Virus record (IMG/VR): IMGVR_UViG_3300034108_000621
Span: 1-46,009 of that record
Length of the DNA: 46,009 nt
From: a virus
Reading direction: 5' to 3' (one strand)
Shown here: positions 1 to 46,009 of the stretch, in pieces
Layout of the letters: each line of letters opens with the position of its first letter
How positions within the stretch are numbered: position 1 is the first letter of the stretch
Notes under the pieces: model-generated
Database searches by the model: none
Told to the model about the DNA's origin: nothing
The model's input: only the letters and a program-made list of their open reading frames with translations
Translations under genes and position numbers: made by a program

Positions 1-135
1 CCAACCCAAGACACAACAATTTTTAGCCTAATGTCTGCCGATTTGTTCAATTACTACGATGACCAATACCGAACAGCTTTTGCCGAACTAACCAAGGACA
101 TTGAAGAAACCGAAGAAGAGCTAGAAAATGCCTAA
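1..135 (+). CDS. 3' end of a small acidic early protein (partial)
   Basis: The reading frame is open from base 1 to a TAA at 133-135 and gives 44 residues with no start. Through base 127 it is identical to the inside of the complete 121-residue protein at 44229-44594. After that base it diverges and ends ELENA instead of continuing. The 5' end therefore lies off the window, or is the copy at 44229 if the molecule is circular. The protein is acidic and I do not recognise a domain. It overlaps the next start by 8 bases. Confidence 0.7.
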   Translation, partial: PTQDTTIFSLMSADLFNYYDDQYRTAFAELTKDIEETEEELENA

Positions 136-401: not shown

Positions 402-512
402 GTGAGTAAATGTCAAGACTGCCAAGCCCCTATTGACTGGGACGAGGGCGGTTTCATCTGGGACGGATTAGCCTTTTGCGAATTACACGACCCCGAGGCG
501 GTGAACGTGTGA
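402..512 (+). CDS. Zinc-ribbon miniprotein (36 residues)
   Basis: GTG start one base after the previous stop. It begins VSKCQDC, and a second Cys/His group (FCELHD) follows about 20 residues later, giving a CxxC...CxxH metal-site pattern. The copy at 45031-45138 is almost identical in protein (DWDEGG here, DFDEGG there) although its upstream neighbours differ, so the reading frame is under selection despite its size. The stop overlaps the GTG of the next gene by 4 bases (GTGA). Role unknown; zinc binding is inferred. Confidence 0.72.
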   Translation: MSKCQDCQAPIDWDEGGFIWDGLAFCELHDPEAVNV

Positions 513-610
513 AATGCCAATGTTGCGGGTGGAATAGCCCCAATGTGTCCAAACTAGCTTTCTGCCCAAAATGCGGAATAGATAAAGTTATCCACAGCCG
601 TAAACGCTAG
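509..610 (+). CDS. Zinc-ribbon miniprotein whose 3' end contains a DnaA-box-like site
   Basis: GTG start in a GTGA overlap with the preceding gene; 33 residues with CxxC near the N-terminus (CQCCGW) and a second knuckle FCPKCG, followed by a basic tail (HSRKR). The homologue at 45135-45236 starts with ATG and keeps both knuckles while other residues vary, which supports real coding. The codons for Val-Ile-His-Ser lie on a perfect TTATCCACA, so coding and a replication-type site are superimposed. A nucleic-acid binding role is inference. Confidence 0.7.
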   Translation: MKCQCCGWNSPNVSKLAFCPKCGIDKVIHSRKR

Positions 611-620
611 TTGTGTATAA
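588..620. promoter_or_regulatory. Inverted pair of DnaA-box-like sites
   Basis: TTATCCACA at 588-596 and TGTGTATAA at 612-620 (TTATACACA on the other strand) both fit the DnaA consensus TTWTNCACA. They face each other across 15 bases, and the arms extend to AAAGTTAT/ATAACTTT. The pair is conserved at 45214-45246. It lies upstream of an AT-rich stretch and heptamer arrays, the order found in many theta-type plasmid origins. A weak terminator is possible because the right arm ends in five T, but the stem is AT-rich and the 9-mers fit DnaA better. Confidence 0.55.
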
Positions 621-658
621 CTTTTTACCGAATCCAAGTCGGTAGCCTTAAGTGATAC

Positions 659-864
659 CTGCTCACTACTCATCTACTCATGAGCAGATTAGTAAGCAAC
701 GCCTATCTTCTTAAGACTTCAATAGGAGAACAAAAAAACTAAAAAAACCCTTGATTTTTAGCGGGTGATTTTTGCCCAATTTGCCCCACAATCCCCAAAA
801 TCCTAAAAATCGCTATAAACTGAGCAGATGTGTAGATTTACCTACTCAGATACTCATTAGCTCA
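659..864. repeat. CTRCTCA heptamer arrays around an AT-rich core (iteron/operator region A)
   Basis: Left cluster: CTGCTCA 659-665, CTACTCA 666-672 and 674-680, then the inverted TGAGCAG 681-687. Right cluster: TGAGCAG 821-827, CTACTCA 842-848, and weaker ATACTCA 850-856 and TAGCTCA 858-864. Between them is an A/T-rich stretch with A and T runs and the segment TTGATTTTTAGCGG, which is nearly unchanged in the other version. The right cluster ends just before the ribosome-binding site of the HTH gene, so the sites could be both origin iterons and autoregulatory operators. In the second locus the corresponding heptamer is CTTAGAY. Confidence 0.65.
781..809 (+). promoter_or_regulatory. Candidate promoter of the HTH gene
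   Basis: TTGCCC at 781-786 and TAAAAA at 804-809 with a 17-base spacer. The equivalent at 45402-45429 is TTGCTA, 16 bases, TAAAAA. A TATAAA at 814-819 is an alternative -10 in this copy only. Either would place the start of transcription among the right-hand heptamers, consistent with repression by their binding protein. The match to consensus is modest. Confidence 0.3.
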
Positions 865-886
865 GAAAACTAGAAAGGAACCAAAA

Positions 887-1504
887 TTGACCACTTACCA
901 CCCAAAGTTTGGGGAGCTTTACAGCCCCAAAGAGGTAGCAGACCTAACAGGATTTACTGCCAACCAACTACGCAACTGGCGACAGCGACAGGGCGAAACC
1001 ATGCCTTTTGGATTCATTAGACAAGGCGGGACAAGCTTTTACAGAAAGGTTGTTGTTGATGCTTGGCTTGAAGAAAATGACGGCGGTATCGCTGAGTATG
1101 TCATGTCAGACCTAGACAAGCGATTCCCTATTGAGCGAGAACTCGCAACCGACAGGGACAAGGTAGAGAACCTCAAAAAGCTACAAGGCATTACAACAGC
1201 CAACGCCTACCTGAAATGGTATCAGTGGTATTGCGACAGCTCTGGTTTGACCTTTAGCGAGGCTAGCAACAAGGTAGAACAATGGCAAAAGGAACTCTGG
1301 GCATTACATACAGGGCTACCGCTTGACCAAATCGGCAAGTTTCCTACCAGAAAACAGCGAGGCGAACAGCCTGAGCATTACTGGCTTGGTTGGACTTGGG
1401 CTATGCGTAAAGCCTACGCAGATGTCTATAACCTTGATGTTTCCAATCAGGAGATACTTGACCTACCTGCTGGAGATGTCCCACCCCTAAAAGAAACTTC
1501 ATAA
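887..1504 (+). CDS. Winged-HTH protein, candidate replication initiator or regulator (allele A)
   Basis: 205 residues. The TTG start is chosen because the homologue at 45508 has ATG at the same place and an AGAAAGGA ribosome site precedes both. Residues about 13-65 form a MerR/excisionase-like HTH: SPKEVADLTGF, then TANQLRNWR, then a wing ending in FYRK and an amphipathic DAWLEE. From about residue 96 the protein is nearly identical to the other version (LKKL.GITTANAYLKW...), while the N-terminal half is strongly diverged. Heptamer arrays lie directly upstream and also differ between versions, so they are the likely cognate sites. With DnaA boxes and an AT-rich tract upstream, an initiator role is plausible; a transcriptional regulator is the main alternative. 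Confidence 0.7.
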   Translation: MTTYHPKFGELYSPKEVADLTGFTANQLRNWRQRQGETMPFGFIRQGGTSFYRKVVVDAWLEENDGGIAEYVMSDLDKRFPIERELATDRDKVENLKKLQGITTANAYLKWYQWYCDSSGLTFSEASNKVEQWQKELWALHTGLPLDQIGKFPTRKQRGEQPEHYWLGWTWAMRKAYADVYNLDVSNQEILDLPAGDVPPLKETS

Positions 1505-1532
1505 CGATTAGATAACGAAACGGCAAATGTGC

Positions 1533-1560
1533 TTGACCTACCTAACCACTAGGCAAGAAT
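1533..1560 (+). promoter_or_regulatory. Promoter of the early small-gene operon
   Basis: TTGACC at 1533-1538 and AAGAAT at 1555-1560 with a 16-base spacer. A block of about 50 bases (1511-1562) is conserved at 44140-44191, where the boxes read TTGACA and AACAAT with the same spacing. The shared upstream words are ATAACGAAAC and CAAATGTGC. The downstream genes in the two places are unrelated, so the conservation belongs to the promoter. It probably drives the genes from 1589 to about 3666. Confidence 0.6.
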
Positions 1561-1588
1561 AGGAATAACCAACCAAAAGGAGAAACAA

Positions 1589-1918
1589 ATGTATAAGAAC
1601 TATGACTACAACCTGTTTGGCGATAGCGAGGCTAGCCTCACCCTTACCGCCTACCCAGATGTCATTGTGCCTGAGGACGGCGTTGAATACCTGACAACAG
1701 ACTACTCAGAAGCCAATTCAATTAGCCTAAAGCTCACCTTTCCAAAAGACCTAAAGGCTATGGAATACCTGCTTGATGACCTATACATCAACGAATACCC
1801 CCTAACTGATTATGACGATTGGCTAGACATTAGCGAAATACCTGATGACTGCCCTGAGGTAATCAAGGATTTCTTACTCGCACTACCAACCAACAAAATA
1901 GAAATGGAGAACGCATAA
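1589..1918 (+). CDS. Hypothetical acidic protein (109 residues)
   Basis: First gene of the operon, with a strong AAGGAGA ribosome site 7-8 bases before ATG. The protein is very acidic, with clusters of Asp and Tyr (YDYN, LTDYDDWLD, IPDDCPE), no membrane segment and no recognised domain. Strong acidity is common in phage proteins that bind host proteins or mimic DNA, but nothing here proves that. The C-terminus ends MENA in a junction sequence that is repeated exactly after the next gene. Confidence 0.75.
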   Translation: MYKNYDYNLFGDSEASLTLTAYPDVIVPEDGVEYLTTDYSEANSISLKLTFPKDLKAMEYLLDDLYINEYPLTDYDDWLDISEIPDDCPEVIKDFLLALPTNKIEMENA

Positions 1919-13937: not shown

Positions 13938-14018
13938 ACCCCTATTGTACCAGACTACCTAGCCTAGCCTAAAGTTATGCTAGGCTCTGAATAACCGAAA
14001 ATGTTTAGGAGACAAAAC

Positions 14019-14837
14019 ATGGAGAAAACGTATCATTTTATGGCTGGCCTGCCCCGTTCTGGGAGCACCGTATTGGCAGCTTTGCTGAATCAACACCCAG
14101 ATATTTACGCCAGTCCACAGACTGATTTACTTGGCATGTTGTATGAAGTGAATAAGGAAATACCCAACTACGAATCTTATAAAGCTGGTTTATTTCATAC
14201 TGGCTATCAAAATGTCATGAGTAACATGGCTGACAATTTTTACTCCCATATAGATAAGCCAGTTGTAATTGACAAGAACAGAGGATGGGGCACCCCATAT
14301 AACTGGGATAATATAAGCCAGCATGTAAATGTAAATGGCAAAGTAATTCTCACTCTTCGCCCAATTCTTGAGGTCCTAGCATCTTACGCAAACGTAATAA
14401 ATAGGACAGAAAAAATCCTTGGCTATTCCCCTTACTTAAATAGTAATCTGTGGATTACGGATTACAGGGATAAAGGAGATGCTCAAATTGAAAACTTAAT
14501 GCAACTAAATGGAGAAATTGATAGGGCAATTTTATCAATAGCTAATTTGCTAAAAAATCATGGGGATAGAGTTTTTATTGTTTGGTTCAATGATTTGCTG
14601 GAAAATCCACAGGAAACGATGGATGGTATATCTAATTTCTTAGAGCTTGACAGACACGTGCATAATTTTGACTCCATAAAAGAAGTCGACAAGCATGATG
14701 ACGTCAGTGGGTATGGAATTATTGGCCTACATGATGTAGCTCCGAAGCTTACTAAGCCAAATACTAATCCAGAAAAATATTTATCCGATTACATTATTGG
14801 TAAGTACAAGAACGCTTTAGACTTCCTCTGGAAGTGA
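14019..14837 (+). CDS. Sulfotransferase-like protein (moron candidate)
   Basis: 272 residues from ATG 14019; TTAGGAGA is placed correctly for this start and would lie inside the gene if ATG 14001 were used. The N-terminal GLPRSGSTVLAALLNQHP is the phosphosulfate-binding loop of PAPS-dependent sulfotransferases, and LRPILEVLASYANV fits the 3'-phosphate motif. The substrate is unknown: a glycan, lipid or small molecule. It is the only plus-strand gene between minus-strand lysis and tail genes, and it is visibly richer in A/T-ending codons (TTA, AAT, ATA) than its neighbours. Both features suggest recent acquisition. Confidence 0.8.
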   Translation: MEKTYHFMAGLPRSGSTVLAALLNQHPDIYASPQTDLLGMLYEVNKEIPNYESYKAGLFHTGYQNVMSNMADNFYSHIDKPVVIDKNRGWGTPYNWDNISQHVNVNGKVILTLRPILEVLASYANVINRTEKILGYSPYLNSNLWITDYRDKGDAQIENLMQLNGEIDRAILSIANLLKNHGDRVFIVWFNDLLENPQETMDGISNFLELDRHVHNFDSIKEVDKHDDVSGYGIIGLHDVAPKLTKPNTNPEKYLSDYIIGKYKNALDFLWK

Positions 14838-19983: not shown

Positions 19984-20415
19984 ATGAGTAAAGCTAAATC
20001 AATTGGCACCAAAGCTGAAACAGCGGTGCGAAACTATCTATTATCTACTGGGTATAGCCCGCTAGATGCCCACCGCAATGTCCTAAAGGGCAGCGACGAT
20101 GAAGGCGATGTCTGGCTACGTGAGACATATGGCCTTATCGTCTTTGAGGTCAAGGGTGGCAAGATGGCTAAGGATGCCAGCTACGAACAGTGCAAGAAAT
20201 GGCTTGCCGAGGCTGAGCTTGAAAGAGACAATGCCGAAGGCAGGTTTGGCTTCCTAGTTACCCAGCGTGCAGGGGTAGGCTACCCCAGAGCTGGGGAATG
20301 GTGGGCATACGCTAGACTTGGCGATATCTTCTATCTAAGGACTCACTTGGACAGCATCGACCAAACAGTTGTGCGGATGACGCTATCTGACTTGGTAAAA
20401 CTAATCCATGGCTAA
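19984..20415 (+). CDS. Holliday-junction-resolvase-like nuclease (PD-(D/E)XK)
   Basis: 143 residues. GTKAETAVRNYLLSTGY (Glu about 11), then DEGDVWLRETYGLIVFEVKGGK (GD about 39, E-x-K about 53-55) form the nuclease core of archaeal-type resolvase and related phage enzymes. AAGGAG precedes ATG. It directly precedes the large terminase and overlaps it by 8 bases, so it may resolve branched DNA before packaging. Confidence 0.72.
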   Translation: MSKAKSIGTKAETAVRNYLLSTGYSPLDAHRNVLKGSDDEGDVWLRETYGLIVFEVKGGKMAKDASYEQCKKWLAEAELERDNAEGRFGFLVTQRAGVGYPRAGEWWAYARLGDIFYLRTHLDSIDQTVVRMTLSDLVKLIHG

Positions 20416-27437: not shown

Positions 27438-28100
27438 ATGCCAGCTGAAGAGTTTAATTACACAGGAAACGATGTTTCCTTCAGGGTCAGGTCTCAGTTC
27501 GGAGACCAGTCTGGTGCCCAGCTAGGTGACCCAGCAATCCTTTCCTGGATTAACGACGGTCAGCGTGAAATCGTCAACAGCAACCCTATTCTTCGTGCAA
27601 CTAAGATTACAAACCTAGTTGGTGGTCAGCAGGACTACAGCTTCCCAGATGACAAGGTTCTAGCTATTGAGGCTGTCTACGTAAGTGGCTACCCTATTCA
27701 GAACATCTCGCCACAGGCAGCACGTGAATACATCATAGCCCTTGACCCAACTAACATCTTAAATGCCGAGCGTCCAGAGGTCTGGTATGAACGAGCTGGC
27801 GTTATTACGTTTTACCCAGTGCCGTCAGTCAGCATCCCTAACGCCATCAAGCTTGAATACGTAAAGAACCCGACGCCTCTGACTCTGCTAACTCAGACTC
27901 TTGGCATCCCAGACAGGTACTTTAACGAACTAACCAACTACGTAATCTCTCAGGCTCTTGAAATGGACGAAAACTATTCCGCAGCAGCTTACAAGCTAGG
28001 TCAATTCAGGGAAGGACTAGACAGGCTAAATCTAAAGGATACTTTATCTCAGACCGATTTATACCAGCAACTGCTGCCTGACCCAGACGACTACATCTAA
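27438..28100 (+). CDS. Head-tail adaptor protein (P22 gp4-like position)
   Basis: 220 residues. The N-terminal half (FRVRSQFGDQSGAQLGDPAI and SWINDGQREIVNSNP) and the following QDYSFPDDKVLAIEAVYVSG match the helical-then-strand pattern of podophage adaptors that bind under the portal. Overlaps the next gene by one base. T7-like gp11 proteins have a similar shape. Confidence 0.72.
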   Translation: MPAEEFNYTGNDVSFRVRSQFGDQSGAQLGDPAILSWINDGQREIVNSNPILRATKITNLVGGQQDYSFPDDKVLAIEAVYVSGYPIQNISPQAAREYIIALDPTNILNAERPEVWYERAGVITFYPVPSVSIPNAIKLEYVKNPTPLTLLTQTLGIPDRYFNELTNYVISQALEMDENYSAAAYKLGQFREGLDRLNLKDTLSQTDLYQQLLPDPDDYI

Positions 28101-38959: not shown

Positions 38960-39192
38960 TGGAAGAACAAAACGATTTTGAAGCCGTAAAGGCTGGAGCT
39001 GCTGTAATGTATTCAGCACTAAACTCTATTTACCAGCTACACGAAGAAACACCGCTAGTAGAGGGTGCTGTGTGTAGGCACTGCAGTAAGATTGCCGACG
39101 CCAATGTAGCTTATCCTTGCCCGACTGTGCAGATTTTGTTTAACGACTTTATTGGTGAAGAATCTACTTCTGAACCTTTGCCCGCTGAATAG
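38959..39192 (+). CDS. Zinc-knuckle protein (77 residues)
   Basis: TAATG-coupled to the giant gene. CRHC at about residues 39-42 and a later Cys (YPCP at 54) give a partial zinc site; a helix precedes it. The end is acidic. Its last 29 bases overlap the convergent minus-strand gene at 39164. Unknown function. Confidence 0.65.
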   Translation: MEEQNDFEAVKAGAAVMYSALNSIYQLHEETPLVEGAVCRHCSKIADANVAYPCPTVQILFNDFIGEESTSEPLPAE

Positions 39193-39463
39193 CGAGCGCT
39201 TTTCTTTTAGCATCAGCTTTAGAGCTAGCGCCCCATGCTTTTAGTGATAGGAGTAATCTAGTTGGTTTCCCATCCTTGTACTCAGGACCAGGCATATTGC
39301 CCATGCGAGATAGGAATGAACTCCTGCGGGGATTATTGCCAGCCTTTACTGGAGCCTTCAAGTCAGAACCAGGATTAGCTGCTTCGTAAGACTTGCGACC
39401 CTTTTCGTTTAGACCGCCAGATGGGTTCTTACCCTCTTTACGCTGCCAAGCTTCGCTAGCCAT
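39164..39463 (-). CDS. DUF6321-like small basic protein (99 residues)
   Basis: MASEAWQRKEGKNPSGGLNE, then RKSYEAANPGSDLKAPV, NPRRSSFLSRMGNMPGP and a Lys-rich end. The RKEGKNPSGGLN and R..F..RM..MPGP patterns match a small phage family known as DUF6321. Role unknown; probably nucleic-acid or virion associated because it is strongly basic. Last of four TAATG-linked basic genes on this strand. Confidence 0.72.
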   Translation of the reverse strand: MASEAWQRKEGKNPSGGLNEKGRKSYEAANPGSDLKAPVKAGNNPRRSSFLSRMGNMPGPEYKDGKPTRLLLSLKAWGASSKADAKRKALAIQRAKVQK

Positions 39464-39600
39464 TATTTGTCCCTAGGTGGGATTCTTCCCTCTTTGCGAA
39501 GCTTAGATAGCTGAATAGCAATAGCCTGCTTTTTTGGCAGGTAGTCACGTTTACCGCCGACCATGTGATAGGCCTTCTTCTCGGTAAACTTGTAAGGCAT
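39463..39600 (-). CDS. Small basic phage protein (45 residues)
   Basis: ATG in a TAATG overlap with the upstream stop, and its own TAA overlaps the next ATG. The sequence has YKFTEKKAYHMVGGKRDYL and KKQAIAIQLSKLRKEGRIP, Lys-rich throughout. Its place between basic genes supports real coding. Probably a minor DNA-associated or virion protein. Confidence 0.68.
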   Translation of the reverse strand: MPYKFTEKKAYHMVGGKRDYLPKKQAIAIQLSKLRKEGRIPPRDK

Positions 39601-39740
39601 TAGTAACCTAGTTGTGACTTAGCGCCAGACCAGTTCTGCTTCTTCTTAGTCTTGTCACGCATCTTGGCAACAGCAGCCTTCTTGGCTTCCATCTTGCCTT
39701 CTTTGGTGTAAGGATACTTCTTACCGTTTACCATTGGCAT
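39600..39740 (-). CDS. Small Lys-rich phage protein (46 residues)
   Basis: Begins MPMVNGKKYPYTKEGKMEAK and continues with Lys/Ala repeats, ending SQLGY. This opening is shared by small proteins in many marine and freshwater podophages, which adds support. One-base overlaps on both sides. Likely basic virion or DNA-binding protein; the function is not established. Confidence 0.7.
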   Translation of the reverse strand: MPMVNGKKYPYTKEGKMEAKKAAVAKMRDKTKKKQNWSGAKSQLGY

Positions 39741-39922
39741 TATTTCTTACCCTTCTTCATAGGCTTTAGTGACTCAAGAAATGACCTGCGAGGTGCATTC
39801 ATCATCTCTTTGTCATCTAGCATTTTGCCGACCTTAGAGGTCTTTGACATCTTCTTCATAGCCTTAGCCTTGGCAAGCTTGTTTAGAGCGCCTGGCTTCT
39901 TGTCGTCTTTATCCTTGTACAT
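39740..39922 (-). CDS. Small Lys/Met-rich protein (60 residues)
   Basis: Very basic (KAKAMKKMSKTSKVGKM), ending NAPRRSFLESLKPMKKGKK. The PRRSFL piece is like PRRSSFL in the DUF6321-like protein three genes downstream. Separated by 12 bases from the XhlA-like gene. Possible nucleic-acid binding or head-internal protein. Confidence 0.66.
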   Translation of the reverse strand: MYKDKDDKKPGALNKLAKAKAMKKMSKTSKVGKMLDDKEMMNAPRRSFLESLKPMKKGKK

Positions 39923-39934
39923 AGTGTTCCTATT

Positions 39935-40186
39935 CTATCTGATAATTGTAAATAGTGAGGCTAAAAATGAGACAATTGCGCCACCTAGCGCTGTCTTGGC
40001 AATCCTGTCAATCCACTCCATACGAGCCTGCTGAATCTCAATCCCACGCACTCTATCAGGCAGGTCGGACATTCCCTTGAGCTCGCTGGCAAGCTGAATT
40101 AGAAGTTTGTTGGTTTCCTGCTGCTCTTTGTAGAGGTCGTTGATGGTGACTTTGACATGGTTACCTTGGGTAGCCTCGCTAGCCAT
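39935..40186 (-). CDS. XhlA-like membrane-anchored protein (holin-associated candidate)
   Basis: 83 residues: a charged coiled-coil first part (NDLYKEQQETNKLLIQLASE, then RVRGIEIQQARMEWID) and one C-terminal span (about 62-80: IAKTALGGAIVSFLASLFTI). This matches the XhlA type, which helps lysis in some phages. A second membrane candidate lies with the endolysin (13059), so the lysis pair could be split. It overlaps the fibre gene by one base. Confidence 0.65.
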   Translation of the reverse strand: MASEATQGNHVKVTINDLYKEQQETNKLLIQLASELKGMSDLPDRVRGIEIQQARMEWIDRIAKTALGGAIVSFLASLFTIIR

Positions 40187-40794
40187 TATGGAGTTCCACC
40201 GTCAACAGCAAAGTTTACAGGTGGGTTACCAAGGGCAGTTTCAACAGCGTTCAACCGAGTGTTCTGAGTAGTGTTTACACCTTCAACCGCAGTAAGCCTG
40301 TTGTTCTGAGTAGTGTTCAAAGAGTCGATGCCATCTAGGCGAGAGGTCTGAGTGCCGTTTACGCTTTCAACAGCGGTAAGACGAGTACCAGCATTGATAC
40401 CCTCAAGGGCAGTTAGGCGACCATCCTGAGTGGTGTTTAGGCTCTCTACAGCCGTAAGGCGGGTGCCAGCATTGATTCCCTCAAGCGATGTCAGCCTGGT
40501 GTTCTGGGTGGTGTTTACACCCTCCACCGCCGTCAGGCGGTTGTTTTGAGTTGTGTTTAAAGTGTCATTGTTATCAGCACGAGTATCAAGTGTGATGAGC
40601 TCAGCTTCAGCAGTGTCTAGTCTGGCATCAAGTGCTACGAGTCCTGCTTCAGCGGTGTCAAGGCGAGCGTCAGCTGCAACTGCCTCAGCGTCAACCTTGT
40701 CCCAGTTTGCGTTGATAACCGAAGTCTCAAAAGGTTGGTTGGTACCGATTACAGCCTTCTTGAGCAAGAGGCGAGTAGTATTGGTATAAGCCAT
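40186..40794 (-). CDS. Coiled-coil fibre protein with repeats (202 residues)
   Basis: A short head (TNQPFETSVINANWDKVDAE) is followed by heptad-like repeats, first ARLDTAEAGL.A-type (about 41-75) and then NTTQNxRLTAVEGx repeats about 15 residues long (about 79-190). This makes a long trimeric coiled coil, as in phage fibres. End GNPPVNFAVDGGTP. The repeated DNA at this locus is due to these codons, not a CRISPR. Confidence 0.74.
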   Translation of the reverse strand: MAYTNTTRLLLKKAVIGTNQPFETSVINANWDKVDAEAVAADARLDTAEAGLVALDARLDTAEAELITLDTRADNNDTLNTTQNNRLTAVEGVNTTQNTRLTSLEGINAGTRLTAVESLNTTQDGRLTALEGINAGTRLTAVESVNGTQTSRLDGIDSLNTTQNNRLTAVEGVNTTQNTRLNAVETALGNPPVNFAVDGGTP

Positions 40795-40803
40795 AGCTAA
40801 ATC

Positions 40804-41532
40804 CTACTGTTCAGAAATAATGGTCGCCTCGACCTCTATTGTAGCATCATCGGGCTCTGGAATTGTGGATAAATGGCTCTGTCCGTTAGCTAGCGCAATC
40901 AGTTCCCTAGCTATATTGCGCTTGGTAATAGGGTCTTTTACATGCCTCAAAATGATATCTTGCACTTGCATAAGCAACGATGGCACATCTAGGTTTACCC
41001 TGGCATTCGGGTCGTATCGTCCAGTTAGCTGGTTGACGAAGGTAATAGCCTTCATATCGCCGTTTTGCACTAACTGCCCTAATGCCTGGTCAGCCATCGG
41101 GATAAACTTCTTTAGGTTCTCCTCAGCCTTGGTAGCAAAGGCATTGCCAAACTCTTTCTGCCTCATCCAACCATCTAGCTCTGTCAGGCTAATCTTCATG
41201 CGCTTAGCTAGCACCTGCGGAGTAAGCAGATTCAGCGGGTTTAGATAAGCCTGCAAGAAGGTCTCTTGTCGCAAGGTCAGGTTGGGATTTGACGTGGTTT
41301 TTATGCCACGGTCTTCTAGGGACTTCTGGAACTTCGATGTAGGCCATACCAGCTCTACCTGCTCTTTTGTCAGGCTGGCATCCTGGTCCAGAATAACCTG
41401 GGTCTCTAAGAACATGCCCTGCCTGTCAGCAGCAATCGCAGCAGCTAGGACTTTTTCAAATAGCGCTTGCTCTTTGGTTGGCTTAGGAGTGTAAAGCTTG
41501 GTCTCGAACTTTAGTAAGTCAAACTCATCCAC
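40804..41532 (-). CDS. Small terminase candidate (HTH type)
   Basis: 242 residues from GTG 41532, with GGAAGG eight bases upstream; a TTG seven codons earlier lacks a ribosome site. The middle has LTLRQETFLQAYLNP, then LTPQVLAKRMKISLTELDGW, an HTH order seen in phage small terminases of the phBC6A51 type. A helical region follows and a final acidic tail. The genome otherwise lacks a terS next to terL. DNA recognition at packaging sites is inferred. Operon partner of the XRE regulator. Confidence 0.6.
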   Translation of the reverse strand: MDEFDLLKFETKLYTPKPTKEQALFEKVLAAAIAADRQGMFLETQVILDQDASLTKEQVELVWPTSKFQKSLEDRGIKTTSNPNLTLRQETFLQAYLNPLNLLTPQVLAKRMKISLTELDGWMRQKEFGNAFATKAEENLKKFIPMADQALGQLVQNGDMKAITFVNQLTGRYDPNARVNLDVPSLLMQVQDIILRHVKDPITKRNIARELIALANGQSHLSTIPEPDDATIEVEATIISEQ

Positions 41533-42025
41533 GAGGCAGCCCTTCCAGTGCAACTAGGTATTCAGGACTGAGCTTGAATGCTTCCATTAACTTTGCTGAT
41601 AGACCGTCTGGCATTCTTTGCAATTTTCCATTCTCGTAGTCCCTCACTATAGCTGGGTTCATGCGTAACATAGATGCGAACGCAGTCTGGGTCGGTGCAA
41701 TCTCCGCACGCCACTGTGAAAAGCTGCGGTAATACTGTTGCAAGGTATATGGCGGTATGAGCATTAAGTTCTCCGCAGCGGGTCTCAAGTCTGGGGCCAA
41801 TGGCTTGTCTAACCATGTCTTTATCTCCTGGTCGAGTTCTTCGGCTGCCATGCCGAGGTGATTAGCTAGGGTACCGATAAGTCTCTCGGTAGGCCGTCTC
41901 GTTCTGCCATCCTCAATGGCCGAGACAGCGCTGCGCTGTACGCTTGCACGCTTGGCTAACTCAAGCTGAGATAGCCCTGCCTTCAAGCGAGCGATGCGAA
42001 GTGGGTGGTCTGCAATTCTTGCCAT
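41525..42025 (-). CDS. Double-HTH regulator (XRE type)
   Basis: 166 residues from ATG 42025, seven bases after a TATACT box, so probably leaderless; upstream in-frame ATG 42067 is less likely. XRE HTH 1 at about 8-64 (RIARLKAGLSQLELAKRASV, then SAVSAIEDG). A second HTH-like unit at about 103-160 (PTQTAFASMLRMNPAIVRDYENG) has a similar order. Two such units in one chain could bind a dimeric site alone. It lies between divergent promoters and shares an operon with the small terminase candidate, so it may control the switch between the leftward late genes and the rightward small genes. Confidence 0.78.
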   Translation of the reverse strand: MARIADHPLRIARLKAGLSQLELAKRASVQRSAVSAIEDGRTRRPTERLIGTLANHLGMAAEELDQEIKTWLDKPLAPDLRPAAENLMLIPPYTLQQYYRSFSQWRAEIAPTQTAFASMLRMNPAIVRDYENGKLQRMPDGLSAKLMEAFKLSPEYLVALEGLPRG

Positions 42026-42032
42026 GCAGCTA

Positions 42033-42038
42033 AGTATA
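42033..42038 (-). promoter_or_regulatory. -10 element (TATACT) for the leaderless regulator operon
   Basis: Minus-strand TATACT with seven bases to ATG 42025. There is no strong -35 at 16-18 bases, and the region upstream overlaps the -35 of the divergent plus promoter. A regulator made here could act on both promoters. Confidence 0.4.
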
Positions 42039-42060
42039 CATGGTTGTACTGCTTTCCTAG

Positions 42061-42089
42061 TAGACATAGTTTTGTGAGGCTTGTATAGA
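42061..42089 (+). promoter_or_regulatory. Promoter of the right small-gene block
   Basis: TAGACA at 42061-42066 and TATAGA at 42084-42089, spacer 17. It faces the regulator operon in the opposite direction, and its transcript would start about 10 bases before the CAGGGGACGGCTGGAAA leader word at 42106. The genes after 42219 lie downstream. Confidence 0.5.
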
Positions 42090-42105
42090 GGTTGGTTGCT
42101 AGATA

Positions 42106-42194
42106 CAGGGGACGGCTGGAAATCTGCTCACAACATCAACCCTGCTAACTTTGACCTATCGCAAGCACCGCTAGCGATGCCCCCCTAGGGGGGC
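42106..42194 (+). ncRNA. Structured 5' leader 1 (CAGGGGACGGCTGGAAA type)
   Basis: Begins with CAGGGGACGGCTGGAAA (42106-42122), which recurs at 43361 and 43756. Later ATCGC...GCGAT and a strong palindrome GCCCCCC/GGGGGGC at 42179-42194 can fold, the latter just before the GGGAGC ribosome site of the 42219 gene. No T-run follows. The 5' word is conserved while the rest differs, so it may bind a common factor. Confidence 0.45.
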
Positions 42195-42218
42195 TTGATA
42201 AATAAACAAGGGAGCATC

Positions 42219-42527
42219 ATGCCACTAACATGGAACGCTGAGAAGTGCGTCGAAGAAGCAAGAAGCGAGAGCGAGAGTGATTACACTGCCTACCTCTGCT
42301 TCTTGATGATTCCAGTAGGCATCAACCACCTCACCGCTGAGAACGTCGATGAATTCTACTGGCGACTATCGCTGTACGAGCGACTATTCGGGAACTTCTA
42401 CGACACCCCCAGAACTAGGGAATTCGTAGAGCTAAGGGTTGGCTACTCAAGCAACGCTAGCAACCTGACTAGGACTCAGTTCATGAAGCAAGTCGAGAAG
42501 CGCTGGTTCAAAGCCAGCGACTTCTAA
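42219..42527 (+). CDS. Hypothetical early protein (102 residues)
   Basis: ATG 42219 is chosen because AAGGGAGC, shared by neighbouring genes, sits before it; ATG 42195 upstream lies in the palindrome. Acidic N-terminus (ECVEEARSESESDY-like), an aromatic region (FYWRLSLYERLFGNFYDTP), and a basic C-terminal helix (FMKQVEKRWFKASDF). Helical, soluble, no known domain. Confidence 0.7.
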   Translation: MPLTWNAEKCVEEARSESESDYTAYLCFLMIPVGINHLTAENVDEFYWRLSLYERLFGNFYDTPRTREFVELRVGYSSNASNLTRTQFMKQVEKRWFKASDF

Positions 42528-42610
42528 GCAACACCGCCCGACCAGCAGACACTGGGGTGCAAGTCCCCAGCGGGCACGATTGGTCAAGTAGGCTAATCAT
42601 CGAAGGGAGC
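42528..42610 (+). ncRNA. Repeated structured RNA element, copy A
   Basis: A GCCCG (42536-42540)/CGGGC (42571-42575) outer pair encloses a hairpin CTGGGG-TGCAAGT-CCCCAG (42552-42570). A second hairpin, GATTGGTC-AAGTA-GGCTAATC (42578-42598), lies just before GAAGGGAGC of the 42615 gene. The same unit occurs at 42814-42898 with five substitutions; four fall in hairpin 2 and all keep pairing through wobble pairs. That supports selection for RNA structure. Function unknown; a cis-acting leader or processing signal is likely. Confidence 0.62.
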
Positions 42611-42614
42611 AGTA

Positions 42615-42815
42615 ATGCCAAGATACGAAGTAAACATGACCGTTGAATTCAGCGGTGAGATTGAAGCAAGCAGTGTGTCTGATGCTGAGCAAAAAGCATG
42701 GACCGCTTGGGGTGAATCCTTTGATAAGCCCCTTACGTACAGCGGGGTCGATAGTATCGACGTCGAAGAAATAGAGGATGAGGACGAGGACGAGGACGAG
42801 GACGAGGAAGAATAG
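42615..42815 (+). CDS. Small acidic-tailed protein (66 residues)
   Basis: MPRYEVNMTVEFSGEIEASS, then VSDAEQKAWTAW helix, similar in layout to the 2124 and 2330 proteins. The end is a run of Asp/Glu (EEIEDEDEDEDEDEEE) coded by a GAGGAC hexanucleotide-like repeat, which can vary in length by slippage. Such tails can mimic DNA or bind basic proteins. Lies between the two structured RNA copies. Confidence 0.68.
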   Translation: MPRYEVNMTVEFSGEIEASSVSDAEQKAWTAWGESFDKPLTYSGVDSIDVEEIEDEDEDEDEDEEE

Positions 42816-42898
42816 CAACACCGCCCGACTAGCAGACACTGGGGTGCAAGTCCCCAGCGGGCACGATTAGCCAAGTAGGCTAGTTATCGAAGGGAGCA
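42814..42898 (+). ncRNA. Repeated structured RNA element, copy B
   Basis: Begins inside the TAG of the acidic-tail gene. GCCCG (42823-42827)/CGGGC (42858-42862), hairpin CTGGGG-TGCAAGT-CCCCAG (42839-42857), and hairpin GATTAGCC-AAGTA-GGCTAGTT (42865-42885) precede GAAGGGAGC of the 42901 gene. Compared with copy A, the stem-2 changes are U-G to C-G, G-U to A-U, U-A to U-G and G-C to G-U, all pairing. The loop AAGTA is unchanged. Confidence 0.62.
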
Positions 42899-42900
42899 TC

Positions 42901-43047
42901 ATGAATACAGAAACAAAATTGCAATGCGGATTATGCAAGCAAGCTGAAGCCCAGTACGAGCTGAGCTTCGGTCCTGGCGGGTTCCACGCAACCGTCAATG
43001 TATGCAAGAAGTGTGCAACCAAGCACGCTGGACCACTAGACAAGTAA
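42901..43047 (+). CDS. Zinc-ribbon miniprotein (48 residues)
   Basis: ATG after AAGGGAGCATC; CGLC at residues 9-12 and CKKC at about 35-38, separated by a strand-rich segment (AQYELSFGPGGFHATV). A clear treble-clef-like spacing. Too short for many gene finders but well supported by ribosome site and pattern. It starts MNTE like the next gene. Confidence 0.68.
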   Translation: MNTETKLQCGLCKQAEAQYELSFGPGGFHATVNVCKKCATKHAGPLDK

Positions 43048-43056
43048 GGGAGCATC

Positions 43057-43299
43057 ATGAATACAGAACCAATCATCGCCTACTGCGACTTCTGCGAAGG
43101 GCAGTACCGCCAACCAATCAAGTTCCGCAAAGTCTATGACCAGTGGGAATCATCATCCTGGCACGAACCACTTGACCCGCTCACTGGGTCGGATTGGATT
43201 GCCAACTGGTGCGCCCACTGCGGGCCCCAGCACCGAAGCGAGCGAGCTTACCGTGAGTGGCAACAGAAGAAAGCTGAGTACGTGTTTCAGCTGAACTAA
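43057..43299 (+). CDS. Zinc-ribbon protein (80 residues)
   Basis: AAGGGAGCATC then ATG. CDFC at about 10-13 and CAHC at about 52-55 with His/Trp-rich middle (SSSWHEPLDP) and a basic helix at the end (ERAYREWQQKKAEY). The two CxxC knuckles and basic helix suggest nucleic-acid binding. Paired with the 42901 gene by its shared leader word and MNTE opening. Confidence 0.7.
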   Translation: MNTEPIIAYCDFCEGQYRQPIKFRKVYDQWESSSWHEPLDPLTGSDWIANWCAHCGPQHRSERAYREWQQKKAEYVFQLN

Positions 43300-43360
43300 T
43301 ACTTGCTCCCTCAAGCGTCCTGAGCATGACGATAAAAGGCTCTATAAACATGCCCGCCTA

Positions 43361-43446
43361 CAGGGGACGGCTGGAAAGGTGCGATGCCTGCGGTGCCTAG
43401 TAGATTAGCCGTAATGCCAAACTGGCAGAAACGATAGGAGCAAAAA
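43361..43446 (+). ncRNA. Structured 5' leader 2
   Basis: Starts with CAGGGGACGGCTGGAAA and continues AGGTGCG (23 bases identical to leader 3). TATAAA at 43343-43348 lies 13 bases upstream and could be a -10. Within the leader TGCCA-AAC-TGGCA forms a tight hairpin. The leader also contains a short ORF that ends at the ribosome site of the next gene. Confidence 0.45.
43384..43437 (+). CDS. Possible leader peptide (17 residues)
   Basis: ATG preceded by GGAAAGG, giving MPAVPSRLAVMPNWQKR and a TAG that runs directly into the GGAG of the next gene. Its ribosome site belongs to the leader element, which repeats at 43756, there followed by TTG. It may couple translation to structure of the leader. 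Very short, so coding is uncertain. Confidence 0.3.
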   Translation: MPAVPSRLAVMPNWQKR

Positions 43447-43674
43447 ATGACCAAAAAAGACTACAAGCTAATTGCCCAAGCAATCGCAGACACCTATTGC
43501 GACATTGGCTCAGCTAGCGCAATCGTCGAGAGTATCGCCGAGGCATTAGAGGCTGAGAACCCATTGTTCAACAAAACCAAGTTTCGTGAGGCTTGCGGGG
43601 TTGCTCTACCTGCCAAAAGCGAGGAGCAGAAGTTCATGGATGACCATTTCAAGGTGATAATGGTTCAGGCATAG
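43447..43674 (+). CDS. Small phage protein (75 residues)
   Basis: TAGGAG six bases before ATG. MTKKDYKLIAQAIADTY, then a helix with VESIAEALEAENPLFNKTKF and REACG. This layout is common among small phage early proteins of actinobacteriophages and others, without a known role. The hairpin at 43699 closes the transcript. Confidence 0.72.
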   Translation: MTKKDYKLIAQAIADTYCDIGSASAIVESIAEALEAENPLFNKTKFREACGVALPAKSEEQKFMDDHFKVIMVQA

Positions 43675-43698
43675 TCTAAACAGCCCTGTAAGCCCCGT

Positions 43699-43727
43699 AG
43701 ACCCCGCTAGCCCCGCTGGCGGGGTCT
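43699..43727 (+). terminator. GC-rich terminator-like hairpin
   Basis: AGACCCCGC (43699-43707) pairs perfectly with GCGGGGTCT (43719-43727) across 11 bases, followed by TTCCC. Strong stem and short T-run, so moderately efficient termination is likely. The next leader starts 29 bases later. Confidence 0.6.
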
Positions 43728-43755
43728 TTCCCTATCTGCGGGGCTGGCGGGCCCT

Positions 43756-43940
43756 CAGGGGACGGCTGGAAAGGTGCGTTGCGTGCCCTGCGTGCTAGCT
43801 TGGCAGGGTTAGCCATGCTTGGCATAGCTAGCACCGCAATACTGCTAGACATGCCTTGCCCTGTTGATTCTCAATTTTTGAGAGTTGCGGGGCGGGCTTG
43901 GCTAGCTAAACAACCGATAACCAACCGAAAGGCTAAAAAA
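43756..43940 (+). ncRNA. Structured 5' leader 3
   Basis: CAGGGGACGGCTGGAAA plus AGGTGCG, then a perfect 9-bp inverted repeat GTGCTAGCT (43792-43800) / AGCTAGCAC (43826-43834) with a small ATGC-TTG-GCAT hairpin in its loop. TCTCAA-TTT-TTGAGA follows. An open frame from TTG 43779 runs through to the 43941 gene, but the stems suggest RNA structure rather than coding. No promoter box was certain; readthrough past the 43699 hairpin is possible. Confidence 0.45.
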
Positions 43941-44141
43941 ATGGAAACAGCGAACAACAGCCGAATCTGTAAAGAGTGTGCCGAAACTGGCAGATTGAAA
44001 TGGCTACCCTGCGGAACTCATCACCTAGTTATTCCCGCCGAATTGTGCGGGCATGAAAACACAAGCCAGATTTTTATTCACAATGGCGAGGGGCTAGGTT
44101 GCCACGATTGCGGAACCCAAATCGGCTTGATAACGGTTTGA
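43941..44141 (+). CDS. Zinc-ribbon protein (66 residues)
   Basis: Start at ATG 43941 with GAAAGG in front. CKEC (residues 9-12), a later CG and CHDC (about 55-58) with His residues form likely one or two zinc sites. An in-frame extension upstream to TTG 43779 would add a hydrophobic 54-residue N-terminus; I disfavour it because it lies over stems and starts weakly. Followed by the promoter at 44162. Confidence 0.68.
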   Translation: METANNSRICKECAETGRLKWLPCGTHHLVIPAELCGHENTSQIFIHNGEGLGCHDCGTQIGLITV

Positions 44142-44161
44142 TAACGAAACCCCAAATGTGC

Positions 44162-44189
44162 TTGACACGCCTAAACACTAGGCAACAAT
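44162..44189 (+). promoter_or_regulatory. Promoter, homologous to 1533-1560
   Basis: TTGACA at 44162-44167, 16-base spacer, AACAAT at 44184-44189. The stretch from ATAACGAAAC (44141) through GGCAACAATGG matches the 1511-1562 block. Drives the 44229 gene and probably the short genes up to the origin-like locus. The perfect TTGACA makes it likely the stronger of the pair. Confidence 0.62.
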
Positions 44190-44228
44190 GGAACTAGCAA
44201 CACCCAACCAACCGAAAAGGAGCAAGAA

Positions 44229-44594
44229 ATGAAAATGGATTACAGCGACATAAAGAGCGATGTTTTAGACCACTTCAAGCAACTAACAGAAACCCCTTAC
44301 CCCGAAGATTTGTTGCGAGAGCTGGCGGATTCCGCTTGCCCTGTTTACTATTCGGACATAATCAAGGACTGGCAAGAAATGCCGAACGAATACACCGACA
44401 GTTGGCAAGAGTTCATTGAACCAACCCAAGACACAACAATTTTTAGCCTAATGTCTGCCGATTTGTTCAATTACTACGATGACCAATACCGAACAGCTTT
44501 TGCCGAACTAACCAAGGACATTGAAGAAACCGAAGAAGAGCTAGAAATTGACATAACCAACCCAACCAGCCCGAAAGGATACCAAAATGCCTAA
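44229..44594 (+). CDS. Acidic early protein (121 residues)
   Basis: AAAAGGAGC before ATG. Acidic, helical, with ISLMSADLF-like and Tyr-rich parts (FNYYDDQYRTAF) and a Glu-rich end that continues past ELE into IDITNPTSPKGYQNA. The copy at the start of the window lacks this extension. Bases 44421-44547 are identical to 1-127. Function unknown. Overlaps the next start by 8 bases. Confidence 0.76.
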   Translation: MKMDYSDIKSDVLDHFKQLTETPYPEDLLRELADSACPVYYSDIIKDWQEMPNEYTDSWQEFIEPTQDTTIFSLMSADLFNYYDDQYRTAFAELTKDIEETEEELEIDITNPTSPKGYQNA

Positions 44595-44742
44595 AACCTA
44601 CATCATCAAGAACAGCGGAGATTACCGCCAAGACGGAAAAGACCAAGTATTCACAACCAAGAAAGAAGCCGAACAAGTAGCCACCGCCCTACGATTTGCG
44701 AGGGCTAGAGTTTGGGTTGAGAAAGTAGAGGAAAACGCATAA
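44587..44742 (+). CDS. Hypothetical basic protein (51 residues)
   Basis: CGAAAGGAT before ATG. MPKTYIIKNSGDYRQDG, then a helix KKEAEQVATALRFARARVW and an end VEENA. The last bases repeat the GAAAACGCATAATG junction type seen after the 1589 and 1918 genes. Coupled to the next gene by TAATG. Unknown function. Confidence 0.66.
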   Translation: MPKTYIIKNSGDYRQDGKDQVFTTKKEAEQVATALRFARARVWVEKVEENA

Positions 44743-44894
44743 TGACAACACCCAACGGATACCGCCAATTTGTCGTGATTGACAGGGCAACAGATAAACC
44801 CCTAGCAACCTTACCCCTAACCGTCCCTATTGGTTCCACAATAGAGGCGTATGAGAGGGCAGGTTATAGTGTGCGATGGACTTGGGGGGCGTGA
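44742..44894 (+). CDS. Hypothetical protein (50 residues)
   Basis: TAATG-coupled to both sides. Begins MTTPNGYRQFVVIDRATDK; mostly beta-like with Thr/Pro, and an end YSVRWTWGA. No motif. Coding is supported by exact coupling in a run of similar genes rather than by homology that I can recognise. Confidence 0.58.
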   Translation: MTTPNGYRQFVVIDRATDKPLATLPLTVPIGSTIEAYERAGYSVRWTWGA

Positions 44895-45034
44895 TGATTG
44901 ACCTAGCAGGGAAACGCTACATAACGGAAATGCTAGCCAAGGGGTTTGTTATTGCCCCTTGTGCTACGCCGTATTGTGAACAGCTATTTTCTAGCGGTTT
45001 GTTTTGTTCGGATTGCGAGGCAATAACGCTATGA
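44894..45034 (+). CDS. Zinc-finger miniprotein (46 residues)
   Basis: ATG overlaps the previous TGA (TGATG). Four Cys at about 23, 28, 38 and 41 (PCATPYC and FCSDC) make a zinc-finger pattern after a helical first half (GKRYITEMLAKGF). Its TGA overlaps the next ATG (ATGA). Not present in the other version of the locus. Confidence 0.64.
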   Translation: MIDLAGKRYITEMLAKGFVIAPCATPYCEQLFSSGLFCSDCEAITL

Positions 45035-45138
45035 AATGCCAAGACTGTCAAGCCCCAATAGATTTTGATGAGGGCGGTTTCATCTGGGACGGATTAGCCT
45101 TTTGCGAATTACACGACCCTGAGGGCGTGAGCGTATGA
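45031..45138 (+). CDS. Zinc-ribbon miniprotein (35 residues, copy B)
   Basis: Counterpart of 402-512: MKCQDCQAPIDFDEGG and FCELHDPEGVSV. It uses ATG where copy A uses GTG, and the codons differ silently in several places (for example CCA ATA against CCT ATT), which supports selection on protein. ATGA overlap before it and a 4-base overlap after it. Confidence 0.72.
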   Translation: MKCQDCQAPIDFDEGGFIWDGLAFCELHDPEGVSV

Positions 45139-45236
45139 GGTGCCAAGTTTGCGGGTGGAACAACCCTAACATCACCGCCCTAGCCTTTTGCCCAAAATGC
45201 GGAATAGACAAAGTTATCCACAGCCGTAAACGCTAG
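45135..45236 (+). CDS. Zinc-ribbon miniprotein (33 residues, copy B)
   Basis: Counterpart of 509-610, with CQVCGW and FCPKCG knuckles and the same basic IHSRKR end. The last codons carry the DnaA-box-like TTATCCACA in the same place. The middle differs (NNPNITAL against NSPNVSKL), so the protein has evolved while the box has stayed constant. Confidence 0.72.
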   Translation: MRCQVCGWNNPNITALAFCPKCGIDKVIHSRKR

Positions 45237-45246
45237 TTGTGTATAA
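45214..45246. promoter_or_regulatory. Inverted pair of DnaA-box-like sites (copy B)
   Basis: TTATCCACA at 45214-45222 and TGTGTATAA at 45238-45246, same spacing and loop as in copy A. Just downstream the sequence changes completely to the CTTAGAY arrays, so the box pair is a fixed part of the module and the heptamers are the variable part. Confidence 0.55.
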
Positions 45247-45284
45247 CTTTTTACCGAATCTGAGCTGGGTTCCCTATAACCTTG

Positions 45285-45494
45285 CTTAGACTTAGTCAGC
45301 TTAGATTTCTAACTTGACTAAGTCTAAGTAGTGTTCTTAAGAACTTCAATGGGAGAGAGTTTTTTTACCAAAATACCCCTGATTTTTAGCGGTTCTTGTT
45401 TTTGCTACCAATCGGGATTTCACTAAAAACCGAAAATGGTCTAAGCTGTCTAAGCAAACTAAGGTTTACCTTAGATACCTTAGACCACTTAGAC
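45285..45494. repeat. CTTAGAY heptamer arrays (iteron/operator region B)
   Basis: Left cluster: CTTAGAC 45285, CTTAGTC 45291, CTTAGAT 45300, then inverted GACTAAG 45316 and GTCTAAG 45322. Right cluster: GTCTAAG at 45439 and 45448 and AACTAAG at 45457, then inverted CTTAGAT 45470, CTTAGAC 45479 and 45488. In the right cluster both half-arrays step by 9 bases. GTTCTTAAGAAC and TGATTTTTAGCGG between the clusters are shared with copy A. The last site ends a few bases before AGGAAAGGA of the HTH gene. Confidence 0.7.
45402..45429 (+). promoter_or_regulatory. Candidate promoter of the HTH gene (copy B)
   Basis: TTGCTA at 45402-45407, 16 bases, TAAAAA at 45424-45429, aligned with the copy A candidate. 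The right-hand heptamers begin ten bases later, so transcription would start among them, as expected for autoregulation. A modest match to consensus. Confidence 0.3.
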
Positions 45495-45507
45495 AGGAAA
45501 GGAACAA

Positions 45508-46009
45508 ATGACCAAATACGACCCCGCACTAGGCGAAATGTTGAGCGTATCCGAGGTGTCAAACCTAACTGGTTTCACCCCTCACCAACTACGAAGCTGG
45601 CGAAAACCTGAGAACTACGACAGGGCAATTTTCAAGGCTTACCGAGATGAAGCCTCTAGCAACTCAGTTTGGTATCGCAAAGATGACATAGACCTATGGA
45701 GAGAACAGAAAGGCATTACAACAGGGCTAGCAGAAATACCAGCCCCCAATGCTATCTCTACCCCGCTACGCAACCCTGAAGCTGAGGGCGATAAGCGGGA
45801 CACCCTAAAGAAACTTATGGGCATTACAACAGCCAACGCCTACTTGAAATGGTATCAGTGGTATTGCGACAGCTCTGGCTTGACCTTTAGCGAGGCTAGC
45901 AACAAGGTAGAACAATGGCAGAAAGAACTATGGGCATTACATACAGGGCTACCGCTTGACCAAATCGGCAAGTTTCCTACCAGAAAACAGCGAGGCGAAC
46001 AGCCTGAGC
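45508..46009 (+). CDS. Winged-HTH protein, candidate initiator or regulator (allele B, 3' truncated)
   Basis: 167 codons are present before the window ends; the copy A protein has 205. ATG follows AGGAAAGGA. HTH at about 12-32 (LSVSEVSNLTGFTPHQLRSW), wing around 50-65 (SSNSVWYRKDDIDLWRE), then a Pro/Ala linker and, from about residue 99, LKKLMGITTANAYLKWYQWY and a C-terminal half nearly the same as copy A (only synonymous changes after the first few residues). The N-terminal half has about one third of residues in common with A, with insertions. It faces CTTAGAY arrays rather than CTRCTCA. Confidence 0.72.
   Translation, partial: MTKYDPALGEMLSVSEVSNLTGFTPHQLRSWRKPENYDRAIFKAYRDEASSNSVWYRKDDIDLWREQKGITTGLAEIPAPNAISTPLRNPEAEGDKRDTLKKLMGITTANAYLKWYQWYCDSSGLTFSEASNKVEQWQKELWALHTGLPLDQIGKFPTRKQRGEQPE

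Follow-up and report, generated by a model that had tools for sequence, protein, structure and literature searches.

The sequence analysed, referred to here as the window, is a stretch of 46,009 nucleotides from the IMG/VR virus record IMGVR_UViG_3300034108_000621, a record classed as linear. It contains two versions of one locus, A at its left end and B at its right end, whose features are collected in Table 1, where paths A and B denote the two routes out of a shared 127-mer. The locus is built around a regulator gene, which heads a rightward operon with SNF2-type helicase, exonuclease and primase/polymerase genes, and two clusters of short repeats lie upstream of this gene, centred about 200 bp and about 20-70 bp ahead of its start. 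The gene spanning the branch point showed a weak ocr-like anti-restriction match, and the 39-bp in-frame indel that it contains gives rise to the branch between the paths. The inverted pair of DnaA-box-like 9-mers in the hairpin is a candidate terminator or a candidate pair of DnaA sites.

Table 1. Features of the two versions of the locus, in window coordinates.
Feature	Coordinates	Strand	Remarks
Gene spanning the branch point	44229..44594	+	121 aa in path B; 108 aa in path A (44229-44420 then 1-135)
Shared 127-mer (branch vertex), start of path A	1..127		Exact match to 44421-44547
Shared 127-mer, end of circle, where path B begins	44421..44547		Exact match to 1-127
39-bp in-frame stretch IDITNPTSPKGYQ	44548..44586	+	In path B and L085, missing from path A
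Allele A small gene, 90 aa	128..400	+	Unrelated to B counterpart
Allele B small genes, 51 aa and 50 aa	44587..44894	+	
Zinc-ribbon small genes and hairpin, allele A	408..634	+	86.8% identical to 45034-45260
Zinc-ribbon small genes and hairpin, allele B	45034..45260	+	
Inverted pair of DnaA-box-like 9-mers TTATCCACA and TTATACACA, allele A	584..626	+	Hairpin, then T run
B copy of the inverted DnaA-box-like pair	45210-45252		
Allele A upstream cluster	656..704		CTRCTCA units, 7-8 bp spacing, partial dyad, about 205 bp before start codon
Allele B upstream 58-bp dyad, CTTAGA units	45278..45335		Score 15.8 vs best 7.4 in 30 shuffles
Allele A promoter-proximal cluster	815..876		CTCA units every 8 bp
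Allele B promoter-proximal cluster	45436..45497		Two runs, three CTTAG units each, every 9 bp
Allele A regulator gene, 205 aa	887..1504	+	BldC/excisionase-type winged HTH and conserved helical C-terminal domain
Allele B regulator gene, cut by contig end	45508..46009	+	HTH (residues 9-66) 41% and C-terminal part 98% identical to A

The regulator gene gave no family match over its whole length. Its first 65 residues correspond to a winged helix-turn-helix, for which the HTH_17 and MerR matches were weak, and PHROG_66 (excisionase/regulator) was matched by 10 of the 20 regulator members. In the predicted structural model (mean pLDDT 81.6), the N-terminal domain aligned with the BldC structures 6ama and 6amk at a TMt of 0.72-0.74 and a probability of 1.00, the weak Foldseek E-values (0.14-0.23) being attributable to the small size of the domain, and with the RdfS excisionase at a TMt of 0.60; the predicted N-terminal fold is that of a BldC-type, MerR-like winged HTH. 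The conserved C-terminal helical domain of about 110 residues gave no Pfam match. The two alleles are predicted to encode one regulator, in which the C-terminal domain is kept and the N-terminal winged helix is exchanged. A pattern scan of cellular genomes found no homologues of the regulator, and annotated phages yielded no DNA or protein matches to it. The portal protein is 37-40% identical to those of Arthrobacter phages Jasmine and Adat, Microbacterium phage Shocker and Cellulosimicrobium phage DS1, a likeness to actinophages from which the host is probably an actinobacterium; a profile search for the regulator in Jasmine, Shocker and DS1 returned no homologue.

Comparison of the window with itself confirmed, as an earlier note on this DNA had reported, that its first 127 bases recur exactly at 44421 and that divergence begins at the next base, 128. 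At the right end, the same note had described homology to an internal copy of the gene at 1300-1378; the homology held on recheck, and its coordinates proved two bases off, since 45931-46009 is identical to 1298-1376 over 79 bp. This exact match is part of a longer one of 190 bp (45820-46009 against 1187-1376, 97.4% identity), and a third collinear block of 227 bp is formed by the zinc-ribbon region. Chance matching is excluded by E-values of about 1e-62 and 1e-89, and outside the matching blocks versions A and B are unrelated or strongly diverged.

To place these two versions, we compared the window with independent relatives. Locus L085 lies on record G001, a contig of 43,449 bp whose exact 127-bp terminal repeat makes it a closed circle of 43,322 bp assembled with the same k, and which was opened near window position 28,100, far from the locus. 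In L085 the left flank (window 38,980-44,594) runs into version A (125-1604, 97.7%) and then into the right flank (1733 onwards). In L087, which comes from another sample, the left flank (to 44,410) runs into version B (45034-46009, 95.6%), and this is followed by that right flank too (window 1187-1604 and 1738-1857). Each of these relatives has the locus once, with both flanks joined. Locus L086 is a further mosaic, in which an A-type regulator stands behind B-like upstream sequence. No exact overlap was found linking L087 with G003, which are from one sample.

The window is a lasso-shaped short-read contig, with a circle of about 44,420 bp (bases 1-44420) closed through allele A, and allele B (44548-46009) is a second path hanging off this circle. 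Closure of the circle keeps the gene 44229-44420 in frame into 1-135. A de Bruijn assembler with k=127 would have traversed the circle and exited via the other variant; in such metagenome assemblers, variants that are farther apart than k cannot be phased (PMC11443906). The joining of alternate variants through a k-length shared sequence is also what is described for strain-variant assembly artefacts, from which we found no difference here (PMC11443906). The reading of 127 as the assembler k, put forward in the earlier note, is borne out by 127-bp repeats in G001, G019 and G020. The proposal that a circular genome of about 44.4 kb had been assembled through two variants is supported by the relatives: at this one position, between the same flanks, L085 has a single copy of A and L087 a single copy of B. 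Together, these comparisons support the view that the window ends are alternative versions of one locus, left over from the assembly of a mixed population.

The presence of both versions on one contig could also reflect a real tandem duplication, in which one genome has A and B as neighbouring paralogous cassettes and the contig ends lie inside them. Against this, no relative has both, and the gene occurs once in L085, in L087 and in 13 more distant relatives with full-length matches. In addition, a duplication would require two cuts at homologous positions, with one cut placed precisely one k-mer inside the shared stretch, and other contigs, such as G019, have the same lasso at unrelated loci. 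We consider a duplication very improbable and rejected it on the single copy in the relatives.

The right end of the lasso is of a different kind. Path B stops at 46009, 79 bp past the last A/B difference compared with a k of 127, so that this end is not a clean k-mer merge; the path there either simply stops or meets another branch. L085 departs from A at 1378, adjoining the 1376/46009 endpoint, and an extra branch among B-type variants may therefore halt the contig there.

Contigs of this shape were also seen elsewhere. In G019 the first 127 bp recur at 43322, from where the contig runs on for 1,002 bp through a version 84% identical to its own start (1-987 against 43322-44308), and the two versions lie in apparent structural genes. 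In G020 the last 127 bp recur at 145, and positions 7-271 match the contig's own end, making it a lasso contig as well. The two cases indicate that lasso contigs are common and flag variation within populations at various loci. Contigs like the window are classed as linear and present two alleles as though both belonged to a single genome, and the simple test of whether the first k bases recur inside detects such contigs and shows where the population is split.

The two versions differ in the repeat units of the upstream clusters, with six CTRCTCA units in 340 bp in A and eight CTTAGA units in 340 bp in B, and they retain partial similarity in the segment that separates the clusters. A strong dyad of about 40-60 bp is present at the upstream position in most relatives. 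No consensus sigma-70 promoter was found near the sites, which counts against the explanation favoured below. Elsewhere in the window both motifs occur at roughly the chance rate, on which ground a genome-wide operator array was rejected.

We then asked how the sites vary with the two parts of the regulator. Across 19 loci, site sequences varied with the HTH rather than with the C-terminus (partial Mantel r=0.69, p=0.0002, for sites against the N-terminus given the C-terminus), and the spacer varied with the C-terminus rather than with the HTH (r=0.44, p=0.0004, for spacer against the C-terminus given the N-terminus), with negative cross terms, in a test that leaves some shared ancestry in, related loci not being independent. 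The two clusters of a locus were more alike than clusters of other loci (0 of 500 permutations). Stronger evidence than the Mantel tests is provided by two natural swap pairs. Between A and B/L087, the motif changes from CTRCTCA to CTTAGA along with the HTH, around a C-terminus that is nearly unchanged (Table 1). Between L120 and L124, with a C-terminus 96% identical and an HTH 79% identical, the motif changes from CTACTCA to CTACTTA and the spacer is largely conserved; the recognition helix reads NQRLRAD in L120 and NQRTKPE in L124, and the sites of each agree with those of other loci of its own helix type. The N- and C-terminal trees conflict at the same places as the swaps. The comparison showed that the putative winged helix and both upstream clusters have been exchanged together around a kept C-terminal domain, a covariation of protein and sites of the kind found for immunity repressors and their operators. 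Taken together, the two allele pairs and the 19 aligned relatives offer a code from which recognition helices can be matched to sites.

From this covariation, the regulator N-terminus would bind both clusters. BldC covers 9 bp per subunit on direct repeats (PMC5859096), and the direct-repeat spacing, together with the predicted fold, suggests that the regulator probably assembles head to tail, as a BldC-like filament on 8-9-bp repeats. In the DNA sequence, the units stand 9 bp apart in allele B, which would match BldC (PMC5859096), and 8 bp apart in allele A. The regulator shares the predicted N-terminal fold with this MerR-like family of Streptomyces; unlike BldC, which has 68 residues and is without a C-terminal domain, it has about 110 further residues in a conserved helical domain and is not a stand-alone winged HTH. 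Excisionases and recombination directionality factors that regulate transcription, such as RdfS and Apl of phage 186, are of the same winged-HTH type, consistent with the RdfS and PHROG_66 matches given above, and the Apl sites are direct repeats near early promoters (PMC7498355). Unlike these proteins, the regulator is much larger and no integrase was found with it.

With the proximal cluster placed immediately before the ribosome-binding site, the simplest role for the regulator is autoregulation, and we infer that it may control its own gene, switching the promoter from which it is itself expressed, where the replication operon begins. Less certainly, the module might set immunity or replicon-compatibility groups, such that a phage of different specificity could enter or persist in a cell already carrying its sister, and alternative specificities would coexist in one population. 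Selection favouring new specificities is known both for phage immunity groups (PMC6550527) and for the compatibility groups of extrachromosomal prophages (PMC7157519). In the immunity groups of Cluster A mycobacteriophages, the DNA-binding protein and its sites likewise vary in concert, so that related phages differ in specificity (PMC6550527); in contrast to the stoperators of Cluster A, which are dispersed genome-wide, the sites described here are confined to one locus, and, unlike Cluster A, the window has a separate CI-like gene. This Cro/CI-type repressor-like gene (41525-42067, minus strand) suggests a temperate or pseudotemperate life; with this gene present, and with neither integrase nor ParA among the proteins scanned, immunity could rest on a repressor other than the regulator. 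In our reading, the locus is a putative autoregulatory specificity module of the immunity or incompatibility type.

Two other roles for the module were weighed. The regulator might be the initiator of a replication origin and the clusters its iterons, so that a swap would move an extrachromosomal prophage or replicating phage into another incompatibility group. The sites do lie directly upstream of the gene heading an operon with helicase and primase/polymerase, the A/B group, L127 and L130 have DnaA-box 9-mers some 270-300 bp upstream, and the proteins scanned included neither an integrase nor a ParA; integration-deficient actinophages are known that have RepA origins and form compatibility groups (PMC7157519). 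With the RepA/iteron origins of extrachromosomal actinophage prophages, the locus shares its compactness, an HTH protein, clustered repeats and the lack of an integrase (PMC7157519), and it differs from them in having no RepA homology, no ParABS found and no GC-skew minimum at the locus. In seven genomes that minimum lies 20-31 kb from the gene, and GC skew was rejected as support for an origin. Clustered repeats stand beside the HTH gene in all lineages and DnaA boxes in some lineages only, the L117-L126 group being without them; the boxes of the A/B group overlap the hairpin with its T run, and the regulator has no initiator-family match. On this balance we regard an origin as rather unlikely.

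A small terminase subunit, with the clusters as the packaging (pac) site, is less likely still. A weak PHROG match (E 6.6e-4, in 1 of the 20 members) and an HTH fold similar to gpNu1 speak for it; the match is limited to the HTH domain and does not extend across the protein, a second gene, minus strand, 40804-41553, has just as weak a claim to be the small terminase (PHROG_24579, E 7.8e-4; Pfam HTH_Tnp_1_2), and the regulator heads an early operon far from the large subunit at 20408. The HTH-only match and the other candidate gene led us to set this role aside as improbable.

The explanation we favour joins a lasso contig, a co-exchanged specificity module, autoregulation, and immunity or compatibility groups, and as a whole we think it likely to be correct. 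On it, the population split falls on a DNA-recognition module, and phages that co-occur and are otherwise similar differ in a property that should determine whether they can share a host. More tentatively, and with somewhat more doubt than confidence, we propose that the window represents an undescribed actinophage-type lineage whose specificity locus is modular and controls itself, a BldC-like winged helix and the two separated arrays of sites belonging to it having repeatedly been replaced together around a conserved effector domain and partly conserved intervening DNA, creating coexisting compatibility or immunity groups in one population.

Several other features of the window were recorded. 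Rfam and tRNA scans of the window were empty. An 85-bp intergenic repeat (42527-42611 and 42814-42898, 94% identical) precedes two small genes, and its GC-rich, hairpin-like core, GGGGTGCAAGTCCCC, had no Rfam or tRNA match. A 69-bp intergenic repeat (1497-1565 and 44126-44193, 84% identical), also ahead of two genes, recurs in L085, L086 and L087 and is possibly a repeated regulatory element. A 35-bp repeat, CAGGGGACGGCTGGAAAGGTGCG, lies ahead of small genes at 43357-43391 and 43753-43786, with more copies in L085-L087. Internal repeats (40259-40566) were found within a coiled-coil gene at 40186-40794 on the minus strand. The tail/lysis region encodes a sulfotransferase-domain protein (14001-14837, plus strand; Pfam Sulfotransfer_3, E 4e-11), which is unusual for a phage of such size.
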